Assembly (NCBI GenBank): GCA_030040775.1
Contig: JASHTB010000021.1
Coordinates: forward strand, 1-35,988
DNA from: Thermoplasmata archaeon
GTDB taxonomy: Archaea > Thermoplasmatota > Thermoplasmata > Lutacidiplasmatales > UBA184
Length of the DNA stretch: 35,988 nucleotides
Direction of reading: 5' to 3'
Part shown: positions 14,703-31,545 of the stretch, one piece after another
Layout: each line of letters begins with the position of its first letter
How positions within the stretch are numbered: the first letter of the stretch is position 1
The notes under the pieces: model-generated
Told to the model about the DNA's origin: nothing
The model's database searches: none
Seen by the model: the letters and a program-made list of their open reading frames with translations, nothing else
Translations under genes and position numbers: made by a program

Positions 14703-16826
14703 TCAGAAGCGAACGAGCTGGAGCTGGTTCGGCCTCGGTTCGATGATCTCGCCCTGGTTCCGCAACGACTGGACGAGGGCCTCCGCCTTGGGGATTGGGA
14801 TCCCGGCCTTCTCGGCGGCCTCGCGGAACTGCTCCATCGTGAAGTGCCCTTCGTGCTCGTCCTGAAGTTCGCGCATGATCCGCATGACGATGTCGAGCCG
14901 CTCGCGCTGGCTGTGGCTGACGCCCGACTGGGTGAGGTCGATGTCGAGCTTGCCCTCCTCGGTCATCGACACCCGGCGGAGGAACGTCTCCATGATGTGG
15001 ATCGCCCGCCGGGCGTCCACGACCTCCACGACCTCGGAGAGCCGGGCCCGGGCCGCGGCCTCGCTCAGGCGGACGAGCGCCTCGAGCTGACGGGCCGTGA
15101 TCGGGACCGGCGCGTTCGGCTCCTCGCCCTGACGGCGGACCTTGACGTAGAAGTCCTCGAGGGCGTCGAGGGCATCCTGGGAGAGGGAGGGCCGGATGTT
15201 CCGGCGGGCGTAGGCGATGTACTTCTTCAGAAGGTCCGGGGGGAACGGGGGAGCCAGCGACCCTCCCGGACCGGGAGACTCGCCCCGCATCTCTGCCTCG
15301 ATGTCGCGGTGAGAGGCCAGAATGCGGCTTGCGAGCCGGCGGTCGCGTTCCTGGTCGGGAAGGTCCTTGATGGAGTAGATGACGTCGAACCGTGACAGCA
15401 GCGTGGGCGGCAGGTCGATCTGTTCGGAGATCGTCCGGTCTCCCGTGAACCGTCCCCACTTCGGGTTGGCCGCGGCGAGCACCGGGCAGCGGGCGTTGAG
15501 CGTGGAGGTGATCCCCGCCTTCGAGATGCTGACGGTCTGCTGTTCGAGCACCTCGTGCATCGCCGACCGGTCCTCGGCGTTCATCTTGTCGAGCTCATCG
15601 ATGATCGCCATGCCACCGTCCGCGAGGACGAGCATCCCGGCCTCGAGCACCCACCGGCCCCCGGCGAAGTCGTCCTTGACCGCAGCCGCCGTGAGTCCGG
15701 CCGCCGTCGCTCCCTTCCCGCTCGTGTAGATTCCGCGGGGTGCCACGTCGGCCACATAGCGCAGGAGCTGGCTTTTGGCCGTTCCCGGGTCGCCCACGAT
15801 GAGGCAGTGCACGTCGCCGCGGACCCGGACCCCGTCCGAGTGACGTTTCACGACACCGCCGAAGAGCTGGAGGGCGATCGCCTCCTTCTCCTCTTCCATT
15901 CCTTTGATCGTGGGCGCCAGCGACATCACGATCTTGTCGACGACGGTGGGGTCCCTTCGGAACCCTTCGATCACCGCTGCCTCCTCGGGCGAGATCTCGA
16001 TCTCGTCGTACTCCCGTGCCTTCGTTTCGAACGAATTGCCGATCAGCATGAGGTCGAACGTCGTGTTCCGTACGACACCCTGCCGGGACGCGCTCGCCCG
16101 CTGGAAGCTCTTCAGCACCCCGTTGAGCGTGACCCGATTGCCCGGAAGCACCTCTCCCGTCAGGTCCTCGGTGAGGAGGACGGTCAGTCCCTGCGGGTGG
16201 GCGCCGTGCCGCAGCGTCTCGGGATGTTCCTGGATCTCGATCCGCTGCGCGTCGACGTAGGACGATTCCTCGGCGACCAGCCGGAACCGGGTGCGTCCCT
16301 GGGTCTTCCCGCAGCCGCCCTGGGATTCGGGGCATTCGAGCGGCTCGCGAAAGACGAGGGACGCCTCGTCCTGCGGCTCGTGGAACTTCGTCCGGCAGGC
16401 GACGCACTCGAACACCGCGTCCCGGATCTGAGGCCGGACCTCGCTCACCCGGCGGACGATGCCCTCGAGGGCGAGGAATCGGTTGAGGTCGCTCTCGCGG
16501 ATCGCCCGCACCTGGCGGTGGGCGGTCGAAGGGAGGCCCACGACCCTTAGGCGCAGCCCCTCGGCCTCGGGGCCGGCGACCGGGAGGAGCTCTCGCATCG
16601 CACGTTCCCCGGCCTCCAGGACCTCCTCGGGGCGCTCGAGCAAAAGGTCGGCGAGCCCGGTGTCCGCCCCGTCGACCGAGGTGAACGGAACCTCGAGGGA
16701 CCTCTCTTCCGGGAATCGGTCGTGCAGCTGGAGGACCGTCGGCCGGAATCCCGACTCCTCGAGGACCGCTGCCCAGCGGCTCTGCAGCTCGGGCGGCGCG
16801 GGGAGGGTCCTCTTGACAGCGACCAT
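14703..16826 (-). CDS. mcm: MCM replicative helicase
   Basis: VGDPGTAKSQLLRYVADVAPRGIYTSGKGATAAGLTAAA, ADGGMAIIDELDKMNAEDRSAMHEVLEQQTVSISKAGI, zinc motif CVACRTKF...CPESQGGCG; start placed at MVAVKRTL because the longer ORF overlaps aspS. Confidence 0.95.
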   Translation of the reverse strand: MVAVKRTLPAPPELQSRWAAVLEESGFRPTVLQLHDRFPEERSLEVPFTSVDGADTGLADLLLERPEEVLEAGERAMRELLPVAGPEAEGLRLRVVGLPSTAHRQVRAIRESDLNRFLALEGIVRRVSEVRPQIRDAVFECVACRTKFHEPQDEASLVFREPLECPESQGGCGKTQGRTRFRLVAEESSYVDAQRIEIQEHPETLRHGAHPQGLTVLLTEDLTGEVLPGNRVTLNGVLKSFQRASASRQGVVRNTTFDLMLIGNSFETKAREYDEIEISPEEAAVIEGFRRDPTVVDKIVMSLAPTIKGMEEEKEAIALQLFGGVVKRHSDGVRVRGDVHCLIVGDPGTAKSQLLRYVADVAPRGIYTSGKGATAAGLTAAAVKDDFAGGRWVLEAGMLVLADGGMAIIDELDKMNAEDRSAMHEVLEQQTVSISKAGITSTLNARCPVLAAANPKWGRFTGDRTISEQIDLPPTLLSRFDVIYSIKDLPDQERDRRLASRILASHRDIEAEMRGESPGPGGSLAPPFPPDLLKKYIAYARRNIRPSLSQDALDALEDFYVKVRRQGEEPNAPVPITARQLEALVRLSEAAARARLSEVVEVVDARRAIHIMETFLRRVSMTEEGKLDIDLTQSGVSHSQRERLDIVMRIMRELQDEHEGHFTMEQFREAAEKAGIPIPKAEALVQSLRNQGEIIEPRPNQLQLVRF

Positions 16827-16840
16827 GGATCCGTCCTCGG

Positions 16841-18151
16841 TTACGGGTCGAGCCGATACCGGTCGCGGGGGAACAGGCGCGCCTCCCGTATATTGGGGAG
16901 CCCTGCCAGCATCTGGACCATCCGGTCCACGCCGAACCCCCAACCGCCGTGCGGCGGCATCCCGAACCGGAACGCTTCGAGGTATCCCGGGAACAGCGCG
17001 GGGTCGAGGCCCGCGGTACGGATGTTCTCCACGAGGCGGTCGTAGCGGTGCTCCCGCGGCCCTCCGCTGGCGATCTCGAGCCCGCGAAAGTCGAGGTCGA
17101 AGTAGCCCGTCAGTCGAGGGTTGTCGTCCTTGCGCTGGGCGTAGAACGTGTGGATCTTGACCCGGGTCGGGAAGTCAATGATGAAGTAGAACGGCGAGCC
17201 GAACTCCCGCACGGCCCGCTCGCCGACCGCCTTCTCGTCCTCGGTACCGAGGTCCGCCTCCGCTCCGGGCCGGCCCAGCCATTCCTCGGCGGTCGAGAAC
17301 GGGATGCGGGGGAACGGCGCCGAGAGCTCGGGCACGTCGCCGGCGAGCGGGTTGCCCCGCTCCTCGAGCTCCCGGCGAACCTGACGGAACGCCTCGACGA
17401 GCACGGTCTCGAGGATCGACCGGAGATCGTCCGCTCCCTCGATGTATCCGACCTCGGCGTCGAGGCTCGTGAACTCCGTGATGTGCCGGACCGTGTCGGA
17501 CGGCTCGGCCCGGAACGCCGGGGCGATCTCCAGGACCCGCTCGAGCCCGGCGCCGATCAGCATCTGCTTGTACAGCTGCGGGCTCTGGGCAAGGAACGCC
17601 CGCTGGTCGAAGTACTCGACGGGAAAGAGGGTCGCCCCGCCCTCGGCTCCCTGCCGCAGGAGCTTCGGCGTCTCGACCTCGAGAAATCCCTGGCGGAGGT
17701 ACGCGGTCCGCAGCGCCTGGAGCAAGCTGCTCCGTAGCTCGAAGATCGCGCGCACCGCGGGCTTCCTCAGGTCGAGGGTCCGGTGGTCGAGGCGCGTGGC
17801 GAGCTCGGCCCCGACCTTGTCGACGACGCCGAGGGGAAGGGGGCTTTCCGCCCGGGAGATCACCCGCGCCGACGTGGGCGTGAGCTCAACGCCGCGGCGG
17901 GACTTCCCGGAGCGGTGGACCGACCCCTCGACCTCGACGACCGATTCGCGCGGAAGGTCCGTGAAGAGCGCGAAGAGCGCCGGGTCGACCGACTCCTTCT
18001 TCAGGGTCACCTGGGTGGTGCCGCTGCCGTCCCGGACGATCGCGAACGCGACCCCGCCGAGGGCCCGGAAATCTTCAAGGTGGCCGGCGATCCGGACGAC
18101 CTGGCCGTCCAGCGCCGGTAGCTCACGCGAGAGCCGGCGCGGGGGCGACAG
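16841..18151 (-). CDS. aspS: Aspartyl-tRNA synthetase, archaeal type; probable CTG start
   Basis: ELRSSLLQALRTAYLRQGFLEVETPKLL, FLAQSPQLYKQMLIGAGLERVLEIAPAFRAE, GWGFGVDRMVQMLAGLPNIREARLFPRDRYRL. In-frame upstream translation LSRELPALDGQVVRIAGHLEDFRALGGVAFAIVRDGSGTTQ completes the OB-fold domain missing from the listed ORF. Confidence 0.92.
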   Translation of the reverse strand: MSPPRRLSRELPALDGQVVRIAGHLEDFRALGGVAFAIVRDGSGTTQVTLKKESVDPALFALFTDLPRESVVEVEGSVHRSGKSRRGVELTPTSARVISRAESPLPLGVVDKVGAELATRLDHRTLDLRKPAVRAIFELRSSLLQALRTAYLRQGFLEVETPKLLRQGAEGGATLFPVEYFDQRAFLAQSPQLYKQMLIGAGLERVLEIAPAFRAEPSDTVRHITEFTSLDAEVGYIEGADDLRSILETVLVEAFRQVRRELEERGNPLAGDVPELSAPFPRIPFSTAEEWLGRPGAEADLGTEDEKAVGERAVREFGSPFYFIIDFPTRVKIHTFYAQRKDDNPRLTGYFDLDFRGLEIASGGPREHRYDRLVENIRTAGLDPALFPGYLEAFRFGMPPHGGWGFGVDRMVQMLAGLPNIREARLFPRDRYRLDP

Positions 18152-19757
18152 GGGTCGCGACCTCCTTGCGAGCGATCGCGGCCCGGACCAGCGCCATGTA
18201 GAGCGGATGGGGGGCCTCGGGGCGGGAGAGGAACTCGGGGTGGAACTGGACCCCGACGAAGAACGGGTGGTTCGGCTCCTCGAGGACCTCGACGCGGCCG
18301 TCGACCGACGTTCCGGTGACGAGGAGTCCGGCCTCGCGGAACCGCTCGAGGTACTGCGGGTTGATCTCGAAGCGGTGACGGTGGCGCTCCCAGACCTCGT
18401 TCTTGCCGTACACGCTCGCGACCTTCGAACCCGGCGTGAGGATGACGCGCTGGGCCCCGAGGCGCATCGTGCCGCCGAGGTCGTTCAGGCCCTTCTGTTC
18501 CTCGAGGAGGCAGACGACCGGGTCCGGTCCTTCGGGGTCGACCTCGGTCGAGTTGGCATGAGGAAGGCCGAGGACGTTCCGCGCGAACTCGACCGCCTGC
18601 ATCTGGAATCCGTAGCAGACGCCAAGATACGGGATCCCCCGCGAACGCGCGGTCTCGATCGAACGGATCTTCCCCTCAACCCCCCGGGGGCCGAACCCGC
18701 CGGGCACGAGGAGAGCGTCGGAGCGCTCCAGGCGGGCGAGGAGGGACGGATTCCTCGGGATGTCCTCCGAGTCGTACCACTGAAGCCGGACCTCCACGCC
18801 GAGATGACCCTGGCAGTGGTGGAACGCCTCCGAATGGGACAGGTAGGCGTCTCGTAGCTCGGTGTACTTGCCGACGATCGCGACCTCGACCGACCCCTCG
18901 CATCGCCGGTAGGTCGTGAGGAACTCCTTCCAGGCGGCGAAATCCGGAGGGCGGTCGGGAAGTCCCAACAGGCGCGTGAGCTGGGCGCCGACCCCCTGAG
19001 CCTCGAGGACGAGCGGTACCTCGTAGATGATCGGCTGGTCCGGCACCGAGATGACCGCCTCGGGAGGGACGTCGCAGAAGAGCGAGATCTTCGCCTTGAT
19101 GTCCGGGGTGAGCGGGGCGGGGCCACGGGCGATGATGAGGTTCGGTCGAATCCCGATCGCCCTCAGCTCGCGGACGGAGTGCTGGGTCGGCTTTGTTTTC
19201 GCTTCGCCGACCGGACCGACGACGGGAACGAGCGTCGTGTGCACGAACGCCATGTGGCCCTCCCCGAGCTCGTAGGAGAGCTCCCGCAGCGCTTCGAGGA
19301 ACGGCATCGACTCGATGTCTCCCACGGTTCCGCCGACCTCGACGAGGATCACCTCGGCCCCGGCGGCCTGGGCGACCTCGCGAATCGTTCGCTTGATCTC
19401 GCCGGTGACGTGCGGGATGATCTGGACCGTGTTTCCGAGGTAGTCGCCGCGCCGTTCCTTTTCGATGACGGCCCGGTAGATCTTGCCGGTGGTCAGATTG
19501 TGCGTTCCGACCAGGCTCTGACCGAGGAACCGCTCGTAGGTCCCGAGGTCGAGGTCGGCCTCGGTCCCGTCGTCGAGCACGAAGACCTCCCCGTGCTGGT
19601 ACGGGTTCATTGTCCCCGCGTCGACGTTGAGGTACGGGTCGATCTTCAGGATCGTGACGGGGACCCCTCGGGCCTTGAGAAGGCGGCCGAGCGAGGAGGT
19701 GGTGATCCCCTTCCCCAGGCCCGAAATCACGCCTCCGCTCACCACCAGGACCTTCAT
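18123..19757 (-). CDS. pyrG: CTP synthase
   Basis: MKVLVVSGGVISGLGKGITTSSLGRLLKARG...KIDPYLNVDAGTMNPYQHGEVFVLDDGTEADLDLGTYERF; glutaminase GVCYGFQ and GVQFHPEF. Confidence 0.97.
   Translation of the reverse strand: MKVLVVSGGVISGLGKGITTSSLGRLLKARGVPVTILKIDPYLNVDAGTMNPYQHGEVFVLDDGTEADLDLGTYERFLGQSLVGTHNLTTGKIYRAVIEKERRGDYLGNTVQIIPHVTGEIKRTIREVAQAAGAEVILVEVGGTVGDIESMPFLEALRELSYELGEGHMAFVHTTLVPVVGPVGEAKTKPTQHSVRELRAIGIRPNLIIARGPAPLTPDIKAKISLFCDVPPEAVISVPDQPIIYEVPLVLEAQGVGAQLTRLLGLPDRPPDFAAWKEFLTTYRRCEGSVEVAIVGKYTELRDAYLSHSEAFHHCQGHLGVEVRLQWYDSEDIPRNPSLLARLERSDALLVPGGFGPRGVEGKIRSIETARSRGIPYLGVCYGFQMQAVEFARNVLGLPHANSTEVDPEGPDPVVCLLEEQKGLNDLGGTMRLGAQRVILTPGSKVASVYGKNEVWERHRHRFEINPQYLERFREAGLLVTGTSVDGRVEVLEEPNHPFFVGVQFHPEFLSRPEAPHPLYMALVRAAIARKEVATPVAPAPALA
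18160..18167 (-). promoter_or_regulatory. Shine-Dalgarno AAGGAGGT for aspS inside the pyrG 3' end
   Basis: Minus strand reads cgcAAGGAGGTcgcgacccCTGtcg; 8-nt spacing to the in-frame CTG at 18151-18149. Confidence 0.65.
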
Positions 19758-19860: not shown

Positions 19861-20637
19861 TCAGAACGGGACCCGGCGTCCCGAGGGATCGCGGTGAAAC
19901 CTCCCGAAGTCCGGCACGCGCGCGAGGAGCTCGGAGGAGAAGACGGGACCGTCGGTACAGACGTGGAAGGGACCGAGGGCGCAGGCATCGCACATCCCGA
20001 GGGAGCACTTCATGTGGCGCTCCATCGAGCAGTAGACCGGCACGTCGCGGGACGCGGCGGCGTCCACCACCTTGCGCATCATCACCTCGGGGCCACACGT
20101 CCAGACGGCATCGAACCGCTCGTTCTCGAGGAGGCGGTCCGCGACGAGAGTGACGAAGCCGTGGACCCCGACCGATCCGTCGTCCGTCGCGACCTCGACC
20201 CGGGCTCCCATTCGTTCGAACCGGTCCCGGAACAAGAGCTCCGGGGCTCGCGTGGCGCCGAGCGCGACGACGACCGACGAACCTCCGAGCCGGGCCGCCT
20301 CGGCCGCCGGCGCCAGGACGGCGGCTCCCGAACCTCCGCCCACGACCAGGATGTGTCGAGGGGTGAGGTCGAACCGATTCCCGTACGGTCCCCGTACTCC
20401 GATCGGGGAGCCGGGGCGGATCGCTTGAACACGGCGGCTCGTGTCCCCCATGGCCTTCACGGTGATCCCCTTCGACGGACCGGTCGTGTAGGAGAGCGAC
20501 ATCGGCAGCTCGTCGTCTCCCGGGAACCATGCCATCACGAACTGGCCGGGCGCGGCGGCCGGCTCGAACGGAAAGCGAAGGGTGACGGTCGAGGGAGTCT
20601 CCTCCACTCGTTCCGTGACCCGGACGACCGTGCGCAC
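19861..20637 (-). CDS. pyrK: Dihydroorotate dehydrogenase electron-transfer subunit
   Basis: PGQFVMAWFPGDDELPMSLSY, HILVVGGGSGAAVLAPAA, CGPEVMMRKV, 2Fe-2S-type CSMERHMKCSLGMCDACALGPFHVCTDGPVF; TATA-like 'gctatatcgc' ~24 nt upstream of GTG 20637. Confidence 0.9.
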   Translation of the reverse strand: MRTVVRVTERVEETPSTVTLRFPFEPAAAPGQFVMAWFPGDDELPMSLSYTTGPSKGITVKAMGDTSRRVQAIRPGSPIGVRGPYGNRFDLTPRHILVVGGGSGAAVLAPAAEAARLGGSSVVVALGATRAPELLFRDRFERMGARVEVATDDGSVGVHGFVTLVADRLLENERFDAVWTCGPEVMMRKVVDAAASRDVPVYCSMERHMKCSLGMCDACALGPFHVCTDGPVFSSELLARVPDFGRFHRDPSGRRVPF

Positions 20638-29297: not shown

Positions 29298-29400
29298 TAG
29301 CGGGGCATGGATTTGAACCATGGATCTACGGGTTATGAGCCCGTCGGGATTTCAGGACGGCCGGCGCTCCCGGCCGTTTTCCTGACTACCCTACCCCGCT
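29298..29400 (-). tRNA. Initiator tRNA-Met (CAU), intron-containing; CCA not encoded
   Basis: Minus strand AGCGGGG TA GGGTAGTCAGGAA[28-nt insert]ATCCC G ACGGG CTCATAA CCCGT AGATC CATGG TTCAAAT CCATG CCCCGCT A; perfect acceptor, anticodon and T stems; A1-U72 and GGG/CCC anticodon-stem pairs are initiator hallmarks. Confidence 0.95.
29351..29378 (-). other. 28-nt D-loop tRNA intron with bulge-helix-bulge motif
   Basis: CAGG-AAA-ACGGCCGG-gagcg-CCGGCCGT-CCTG-AAA-TCCC: 4-bp central helix (CAGG/CCTG), two 3-nt bulges (AAA/AAA), 8-bp distal helix; excision yields a 75-nt tRNA with a normal D-loop. Confidence 0.85.
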
Positions 29401-29468: not shown

Positions 29469-30374
29469 TCAGTGCGGACGGCTCAGGTCCTCGAGCTCGC
29501 GCTGAAGGAGTCGGTCCCAATCGGCCCGCACCTGGCGCTGGACCGTCTCCTCGTCTTCGGTCGTGAAGTGGTGGAATCGTCCCTGGGCGCGAAGGTACTC
29601 GGCCACCGGTTTCAGCTGTCCGCTCTTTCGGGTAATCCTCAACCGGCCTTCCACGATCTCGTAGAGGGGGAAAACGCCGGAGTCGGTCGCCAGACGGCCG
29701 AGCGCGATCGTCTCCGAGGAGTCGAACTTCCACCCCGGCGGACAGGGGGCGAAGATGTCCAGGAACCTCGGGCCGACCAGATCCCGGGCGCGCTCGACCT
29801 TCCGGTCGAAGTCCTCGGGGAACGCCGGATTGAGCGTCGCTGCGTAGACCGGCCGGTGGGCGAGGACGATCGCCATCACGTCCTTCTTCCCCTCCGGCTT
29901 CCCCCGGTGCCCTCCGAGGGTCGGGGTCGTCGTCGTCCACGCGCCCCACGGCGTCGCCCCGCTGCGCTGGATGCCGGTGTTCATGTACGCCTCGTTGTCG
30001 TACATCACGTAGATCGCGTTGGTCCGGCGCTCCAGCATCCCGCTCAGCGCCTGCAGGCCGATGTCCGCGGTCCCTCCGTCTCCGGCGAACCCGACGATCG
30101 TCACGTCCTTCAACCCGAGCGCGTCGGCGGCGGCGCGGAGTCCCGAGATCGACGCGCCGGTCGCCTCGATGGGGTTGTCGAGCATGCCGACTCGCAGTGC
30201 GGTCGTCGGGTACGGCGTAGCGATCACGGTCCAACAACACGCCGGGACCGAGACGATCGTTCGGGGACCGAGGCCTTTCAGGAGGAGGCGCATCGCGAGG
30301 GCCGGGCCACACCCCGGGCACGCCGCGTGTCCTCCGTAGACGAGCTCCTCGGCCGGGATGGTCAGCTTAGCCAT
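29469..30374 (-). CDS. 2-oxoacid:ferredoxin oxidoreductase beta subunit (PorB/VorB-like)
   Basis: GGHAACPGCGPALAMRLLLKGLG, TIVGFAGDGGTADIGLQALSGMLERRTNAIYVMYDNEAYMNTGIQRS (TPP-binding), CPPGWKF; SD AGGAGGT 8 nt upstream of ATG. Confidence 0.93.
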   Translation of the reverse strand: MAKLTIPAEELVYGGHAACPGCGPALAMRLLLKGLGPRTIVSVPACCWTVIATPYPTTALRVGMLDNPIEATGASISGLRAAADALGLKDVTIVGFAGDGGTADIGLQALSGMLERRTNAIYVMYDNEAYMNTGIQRSGATPWGAWTTTTPTLGGHRGKPEGKKDVMAIVLAHRPVYAATLNPAFPEDFDRKVERARDLVGPRFLDIFAPCPPGWKFDSSETIALGRLATDSGVFPLYEIVEGRLRITRKSGQLKPVAEYLRAQGRFHHFTTEDEETVQRQVRADWDRLLQRELEDLSRPH

Positions 30375-31545
30375 GGACCCTCACCTCCTCTTCGAGGTCT
30401 TCCCAGTGAGTGACCGGCGCCGAGCCGCTGAGGAGGGTCTCGAACATCCCGCGTACCTCGTGCGGCGTCACGTCCCGCCCGCCGATTCCGGCGAGGAAGC
30501 TCGTGAGCGTGGGATGGTGCTTCGCGGTGTAGAGCGCCGCGCTCACTTCGGTGGCGGCCGGTCCCATGCGTCCGAACGTGTACGAGCGGTCGACCACGCC
30601 GACGCGGTCGGTGGTCGCGGCCAGCGCTCGGACCTCGTCCTCCGGGAACGGACGGAAGAGCCTCAGTTTCGCGAGTCCGACCTTCTGACCCTCCTGCCTC
30701 AGGTCGTCCACCACGGACCGGGCGGTGGTCGTCGCGGTGCCCATCGTGACGAGGACCGCGTCAGCGTCGTCGGTCCGATACGTGGGAAGAGCGCCTCCGT
30801 GGTGTCGTCCCACCGCGCGCCGATACTCTTCCTCCACCTCGGAAACGACCGTGGGCACCCGCTCCATCGCTTCGGCGACCTGGCGCCGGAACTCGACGTA
30901 GTAGTCGGGGCCAGTGAACGACCCGAGACGGGTCGCCTCGCCCGGCCGGAGGATGGCGTGGGGCTCGCGCGGCGGCAGGAACGCATCGACCACCGCGGGG
31001 TCCGGGACGTCGACCGGCTCGACCGTGTGCGAGAGATAGAACGCGTCCTCGGTCACCATCGCCGGAAGGCGAACGGCCGGATGCTCCGCGATCCGGAACG
31101 CTTCGAGCACGGTGTCGAGCACTTCCTGGTTGCTTTCAGCGTAGAACTGGATCCACCCTGTGTCGCGTTGGCTCATCGTGTCGGCATGGTCGGCCCCGAT
31201 GTTCCACGGCGGCGCGACCGCCCGGTTGACGACCCCCATGACCACGGGGGTCCGCATTCCCGCCGCCCAGTGGAGCAGCTCGTGCATGAGCAGGAGACCC
31301 TGGCTCGACGTCGCGGTGTACGTCCGGGCCCCGAGGGCGGAGGCGCTGACGCAGACCTGGAGCGCGCTGTGCTCCGACTCGACCTGGACGTACTCGGCCT
31401 TCAGCTCGCCCGAGGCGACGAAGTCGCCGATCTTCTCGACGATCGAGGTCTGGGGCGTGATCGGGTACGCCGACACGACCTGGACGCGGGCGAGGAGGGC
31501 CGCGTACGACTGGGCGTAGTTCCCCGAGAGGACCTTTTGCGTCAC
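30367..31545 (-). CDS. 2-oxoacid:ferredoxin oxidoreductase alpha subunit (PorA/VorA-like)
   Basis: VTQKVLSGNYAQSYAALLARVQVVSAYPITPQTSIVEKI...YVQVESEHSALQVCVSASALGARTYTATSSQGLLLMHE; GTG start with SD AGGAGGT 8 nt upstream. Confidence 0.93.
   Translation of the reverse strand: MTQKVLSGNYAQSYAALLARVQVVSAYPITPQTSIVEKIGDFVASGELKAEYVQVESEHSALQVCVSASALGARTYTATSSQGLLLMHELLHWAAGMRTPVVMGVVNRAVAPPWNIGADHADTMSQRDTGWIQFYAESNQEVLDTVLEAFRIAEHPAVRLPAMVTEDAFYLSHTVEPVDVPDPAVVDAFLPPREPHAILRPGEATRLGSFTGPDYYVEFRRQVAEAMERVPTVVSEVEEEYRRAVGRHHGGALPTYRTDDADAVLVTMGTATTTARSVVDDLRQEGQKVGLAKLRLFRPFPEDEVRALAATTDRVGVVDRSYTFGRMGPAATEVSAALYTAKHHPTLTSFLAGIGGRDVTPHEVRGMFETLLSGSAPVTHWEDLEEEVRVHG

Follow-up and report, generated by a model that had tools for sequence, protein, structure and literature searches.

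An aspS gene that almost certainly starts at CTG within the end of pyrG in a family of Lutacidiplasmatales archaea

In a family of the order Lutacidiplasmatales (Thermoplasmatota), the start codon of aspS is almost certainly CTG, and this codon and its Shine-Dalgarno (SD) sequence sit on the minus strand within the final codons of pyrG. In the window (the whole 35,988-nucleotide stretch of DNA analysed), aspS very probably initiates at a genuine CUG, driven by the SD and served by the ordinary initiator Met-tRNA, to give an AspRS of 436 residues. Such an SD-driven CTG start within pyrG had been proposed in a sequence-only reading of the window and is strongly supported by the comparison with relatives: the same junction was recovered from 81 genomes of the family, in which the SD is kept and the start-site codon is CTG in 60, ATG in 11 and GTG in 10. 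The one adjustment to be made is that the CTG start is family-wide and not limited to the genome of the window.

Results

Organization of the pyrG-aspS junction

The source genome has a size of 1.46 Mb and is 82% complete, and the G+C content of the window is 66-69%. On the minus strand, the AspRS frame runs uninterrupted from 18484 to the stop at 16843-16841, the nearest upstream stop being at 18487. As noticed earlier, it lacks a canonical start upstream of 18010: neither ATG, GTG nor TTG occurs between the stop at 18487 and the GTG at 18010, over 158 codons. The sequence elements of the proposed start are all present as described, in the order AAGGAGGT (18160..18167, read from 18167 to 18160), CGCGACCC, then the CTG (18149..18151, minus strand) in the AspRS frame, so that 8 nt separate the SD from the start codon. 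The combination of AAGGAGGT, any eight bases and CTG occurs once in the window and in none of 100 shuffles. The same AGGAGGT motif with 8-nt spacing precedes the porA-like GTG at 31545 and the porB-like ATG at 30374, as had been read from the letters.

The aspS coding sequence predicted from the CTG covers 16841..18151 (minus strand) and pyrG, encoding CTP synthase, covers 18123..19757 on the same strand. The pyrG stop TGA (18123..18125) is embedded in the aspS codons CGT GAG (Arg-Glu), 26 nt past the first base of the start codon, and the two genes overlap by 29 nt (18123..18151), both frames being coding. The listed pyrG ORF, with its ATG at 19988 (minus strand), seems to be about 77 residues too long, since the match to CTP synthase starts at approximately the ATG at 19757 (MKVLVVSGG), which is the likely start. 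Downstream, the listed TTG start of mcm (16943, minus strand) falls within aspS, and the gene probably starts at the ATG at 16826 (MVAVKR, minus strand). This ATG lies about 15 nt past the aspS stop, which suggests a pyrG-aspS-mcm operon.

The AspRS predicted from the CTG

Translation from the CTG gives the 436-residue protein that had been announced, an AspRS of the archaeal, non-discriminating type. Its residues 12-436 match positions 13-438 of the PRK05159 AspRS equivalog profile (438 positions) with a score of 505 bits, the curated cut-off being 353, in agreement with an archaeal-type AspRS over the full length. With the CTG counted as residue 1, residue 12 aligns with the residue of the same number in the 438-residue AspRS of the structures 3nel and 1b8a, which we take to be Thermococcus AspRS, and the numbering of the two proteins matches. 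Full-length membership and numbering are thus shared with the AspRS represented by PRK05159, 3nel and 1b8a, and the start codon is the only difference. The open-frame scan, the family comparison and the structure alignment together leave no canonical start that explains the conserved N-terminus. Three weaker AspRS-like matches in the genome correspond to AsnRS, LysRS and an asparagine synthetase A-like protein, which leaves the aspS product as the only AspRS found in it.

The start codon across the family

The relatives include the Thermoplasmata MAGs AcS4-93, AcS11-62, SubAcS13-64 and SubAcS15-31, which are Lutacidiplasmatales in PMC9287336. Alignment of the junction, suggested earlier as a check, places the ATG and GTG starts of the relatives at the very codon occupied by CTG in the window, except for one genome with an ATG two codons further downstream; nTG is thus found at the site in the other 80 of the 81 genomes. 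TTG was found at the aspS start site in none of the 81. In the genus of the window, which counts 61 genomes after three loci first grouped with it were recognized as belonging to other genera, the codon is CTG in 47 genomes, ATG in 8 and GTG in 6. For the six further genera, CTG is found in 5/5 genomes of one, 5/5 of another and in the single genome of a third; another has GTG in 3/3, another two ATG and one GTG, and the last two CTG and one ATG. On an outgroup-rooted tree the family ancestor carries CTG, and parsimony gives about 12 replacements by ATG or GTG, a count that is only approximate because some deep branches are weakly supported. In the outgroups, aspS starts with ATG at about the same residue and pyrG is not adjacent. 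The pyrG stop is found 26 nt past the first base of the start in 61/61 genomes of the genus and in 76/81 family-wide.

No canonical codon occurs upstream in frame in 44 of the 60 CTG genomes, and the first one downstream is at codon 31 or beyond in 51 of the 60, its position ranging from codon 3 to codon 159. Four CTG genomes are less certain cases because of a possible alternative start, a TTG at codon 3 (G007, G085) or a GTG at codon -3 within the SD (G103, G104). In-frame stops occur upstream in relatives, at codon -8 (L015) and at codon -12 (L014, L023), so that the start is bounded on this side.

Signature of selection at the start codon

The alignment indicates that the CTG codon is where selection on the pyrG frame gives way to selection on the aspS frame: upstream of it the variable positions are pyrG wobble bases, and downstream they are aspS wobble bases. 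The T and G of the start codon show no change on the tree, versus a median of 17 changes (minimum 9) in 18 pyrG wobble columns. The T is itself a pyrG wobble base, and T, which accounts for 4.5% of such bases overall, is found here in 64/64. The PyrG residue overlapping the start codon is free to vary (P, A, R, D, S, H or G). Within aspS, codon 5 encodes Arg in 64/64 and is written with each of the four CGN codons, and the residues of codons 6-11 are nearly invariant in the aspS frame. The first base of the start codon changed 11 times on the tree, among C, A and G only. It is never T, and conserved TTG starts also seem rare in a partial survey of orthologs; C to T is usually the most frequent change.

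Shine-Dalgarno sequence, RNA structure and other CTG starts

The SD core GG(A/G)GG is present in 61/61 members of the genus. A search for the 16S rRNA in the window's own genome did not find it, and the 3' end was taken from four relatives; this end, GGATCACCTCCT, carries the anti-SD CCTCC, and ...GGATCACCTCCTA is complementary to the aspS SD, which has the 8-nt spacing. CTG genomes and ATG or GTG genomes show no significant difference in SD-to-anti-SD energy (p = 0.15), so that a stronger SD as compensation for CTG is not shown. The junction has no special RNA structure (z of 0.12 for the window and a weak consensus) and no credible Rfam family.

In 141 ortholog pairs from parts of two relatives, no gene but aspS combines a CTG in both genomes with an SD-like motif in each, and no second clear case emerged in the genus. 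This survey covered about half of each genome and ORFs of at least 100 codons, with 49 pairs unassigned, and other CTG starts are possible; many other CTG candidates in it were rejected as false, since they came from upstream frames of high GC content or from CTGs internal to genes. Counting which codons follow GGAGG(T) over 400 kb of one relative gave no usable signal over the coding background.

Discussion

The position of the start, its SD, the overlap and the conservation of all of them are read directly from the genomes; the steps of initiation proposed here go beyond this. The strong SD in the last pyrG codons would pair with the 3' end of the 16S rRNA and put the CUG in the ribosomal P site, where the ordinary initiator Met-tRNA (anticodon CAU) would initiate despite a C:U mismatch at the first position. 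The resulting AspRS of 436 residues would begin with Met, which is probably trimmed since residue 2 is nearly always Ser, Pro, Thr or Ala. The start site would lie within a presumed pyrG-aspS mRNA, and we infer this co-transcription as well as the efficiency of initiation and any coupling to the translation of pyrG. The CTG is ancestral to the family and gave way to ATG or GTG about a dozen times.

An altered initiator tRNA as the cause was considered and rejected, the anticodon CAU and the GGG/CCC stem being normal; a standard initiator core with both features was found in the window and in 79 of the 103 family genomes searched. The initiator tRNA-Met of the window (29298-29400, minus strand) has an intron-like insert of about 28 nt, a GC hairpin, in its D-loop; neither ARAGORN nor Rfam detected this tRNA. 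The relatives G018 (L123) and G001 (L162) share the insert, which is absent from two other genera (L209-L214).

Several other explanations of the junction could be issued. GTG 18010 is the first ATG, GTG or TTG in frame, the codon that a gene caller limited to these three would pick, and an AspRS of 389 residues starting there would make the conserved upstream frame a matter of chance. We regard this as very improbable: the majority of the 47 residues that such a start drops can be aligned with the N-terminal part of solved AspRS structures, and the first canonical codon downstream varies in position from one CTG genome to another. The conservation of codons 5-11 in the aspS frame, with the Arg at codon 5 written in all CGN codons, also speaks against it, as does the use of ATG and GTG by relatives at the CTG position itself. 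There is next to no chance that an indel of sequencing or assembly masks a normal start. The GTG at 18126-18124 does overlap the pyrG TGA out of the AspRS frame, by one base, as the sequence-only reading had stated when naming a hidden indel as what would refute the CTG. The phase of the frames is nevertheless the same in 61/61 members of the genus and consistent in the other genomes of the family, all independent assemblies, by which the indel is refuted. The Arg-Glu codons CGT GAG produce this GTG incidentally, and the frame that it opens is mostly 2-44 codons long in the 81 genomes. A programmed frameshift from pyrG to aspS, yielding a PyrG-AspRS fusion with the CTG as an internal codon, could be imagined from the overlap of the two frames and from the upstream aspS frame, open over 112 codons in the window. 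It is hardly credible in view of the in-frame stops at -8 and -12, which leave it little room in several relatives, of the replacement of CTG by ATG or GTG, of the conserved SD spacing and nTG, and of the lack of a special RNA structure.

The last alternative keeps the CTG start but has it used mainly by pyrG ribosomes that terminate and reinitiate, without direct entry at the SD. The nearly invariant overlap (stop at +26 in 76/81 genomes), the location of the SD within pyrG and the fixed gene order in the family are in its favor, and we consider it unlikely. In overlapping, translationally coupled pairs the downstream start also lies within the upstream gene, but these overlaps are of -1, -4 or -8, whereas pyrG and aspS overlap by 29 nt and aspS has its own strong SD (PMC10666635). 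The stop, 26 nt past the start, is outside the usual range of such pairs (-8 to +6; PMC10666635), and the length of the overlap makes classical stop-start coupling less likely. Reinitiation would not need a near-perfect SD either, and the fixed distance between start and stop may only reflect a stop locked into conserved Arg-Glu codons. Of the coupled reinitiation raised in the sequence-only reading, the usual kind, with an overlap of 1-8 nt, is therefore not retained; a coupling through the unwinding of the mRNA by pyrG ribosomes may remain.

With direct SD-driven initiation at CUG as the preferred reading, the reason for which the codon persists can be asked. CUG is a poor initiator in mycobacteria, where CTG was not enriched in a selection (PMC4633059), as well as in E. 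coli and chloroplast reporters (PMC9845219), and bacterial initiation complexes have a lower stability on CUG than on canonical starts (PMC11497404). Selection could have kept CTG precisely for its weakness as a start, to set or regulate the output of AspRS relative to PyrG, possibly through discrimination of start codons by initiation factors or through a dependence on the translation of pyrG; if true, aspS would offer an archaeal case of a regulatory rare start codon that a whole family conserves. We hold this to be unlikely, and the repeated replacement by ATG or GTG argues mildly for a CTG tolerated behind a strong SD. The AUU start of E. coli infC is likewise a rare start on a gene of the translation apparatus, which serves autocontrol by IF3 according to a passage of PMC9845219; for aspS no regulator is known and CTG was swapped for ATG or GTG about 12 times in close relatives.

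Non-AUG starts are already known, and the aspS CTG is a variant of that class. Of 61,358 reconstructed cases, 2 were gains of CUG from AUG, and AUG is favored in conserved genes (PMC5622118); for 69 bacterial genomes, the figure cited in PMC9845219 is 20 ORFs with a CUG start (0.024%). The aspS codon resembles these rare bacterial and archaeal cases (PMC5622118, PMC9845219) in that CUG is read as a start, but they are sporadic, whereas in aspS, a presumably essential gene, it is ancestral and family-wide, despite the selection that generally favors AUG (PMC5622118). No earlier description of an archaeal aminoacyl-tRNA synthetase with a conserved CUG start was found in the open-licence literature.

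Gene callers restricted to ATG, GTG and TTG would truncate AspRS in this family of acid-soil archaea, and the natural series of CTG, ATG and GTG at one fixed site is a ready-made set for the effects of start codons in archaea. CUG is generally regarded as a nearly unused prokaryotic start. Since the sole AspRS gene found keeps its ancestral CUG in dozens of species, a strong SD can evidently sustain CUG initiation of a presumably essential gene over the long term.
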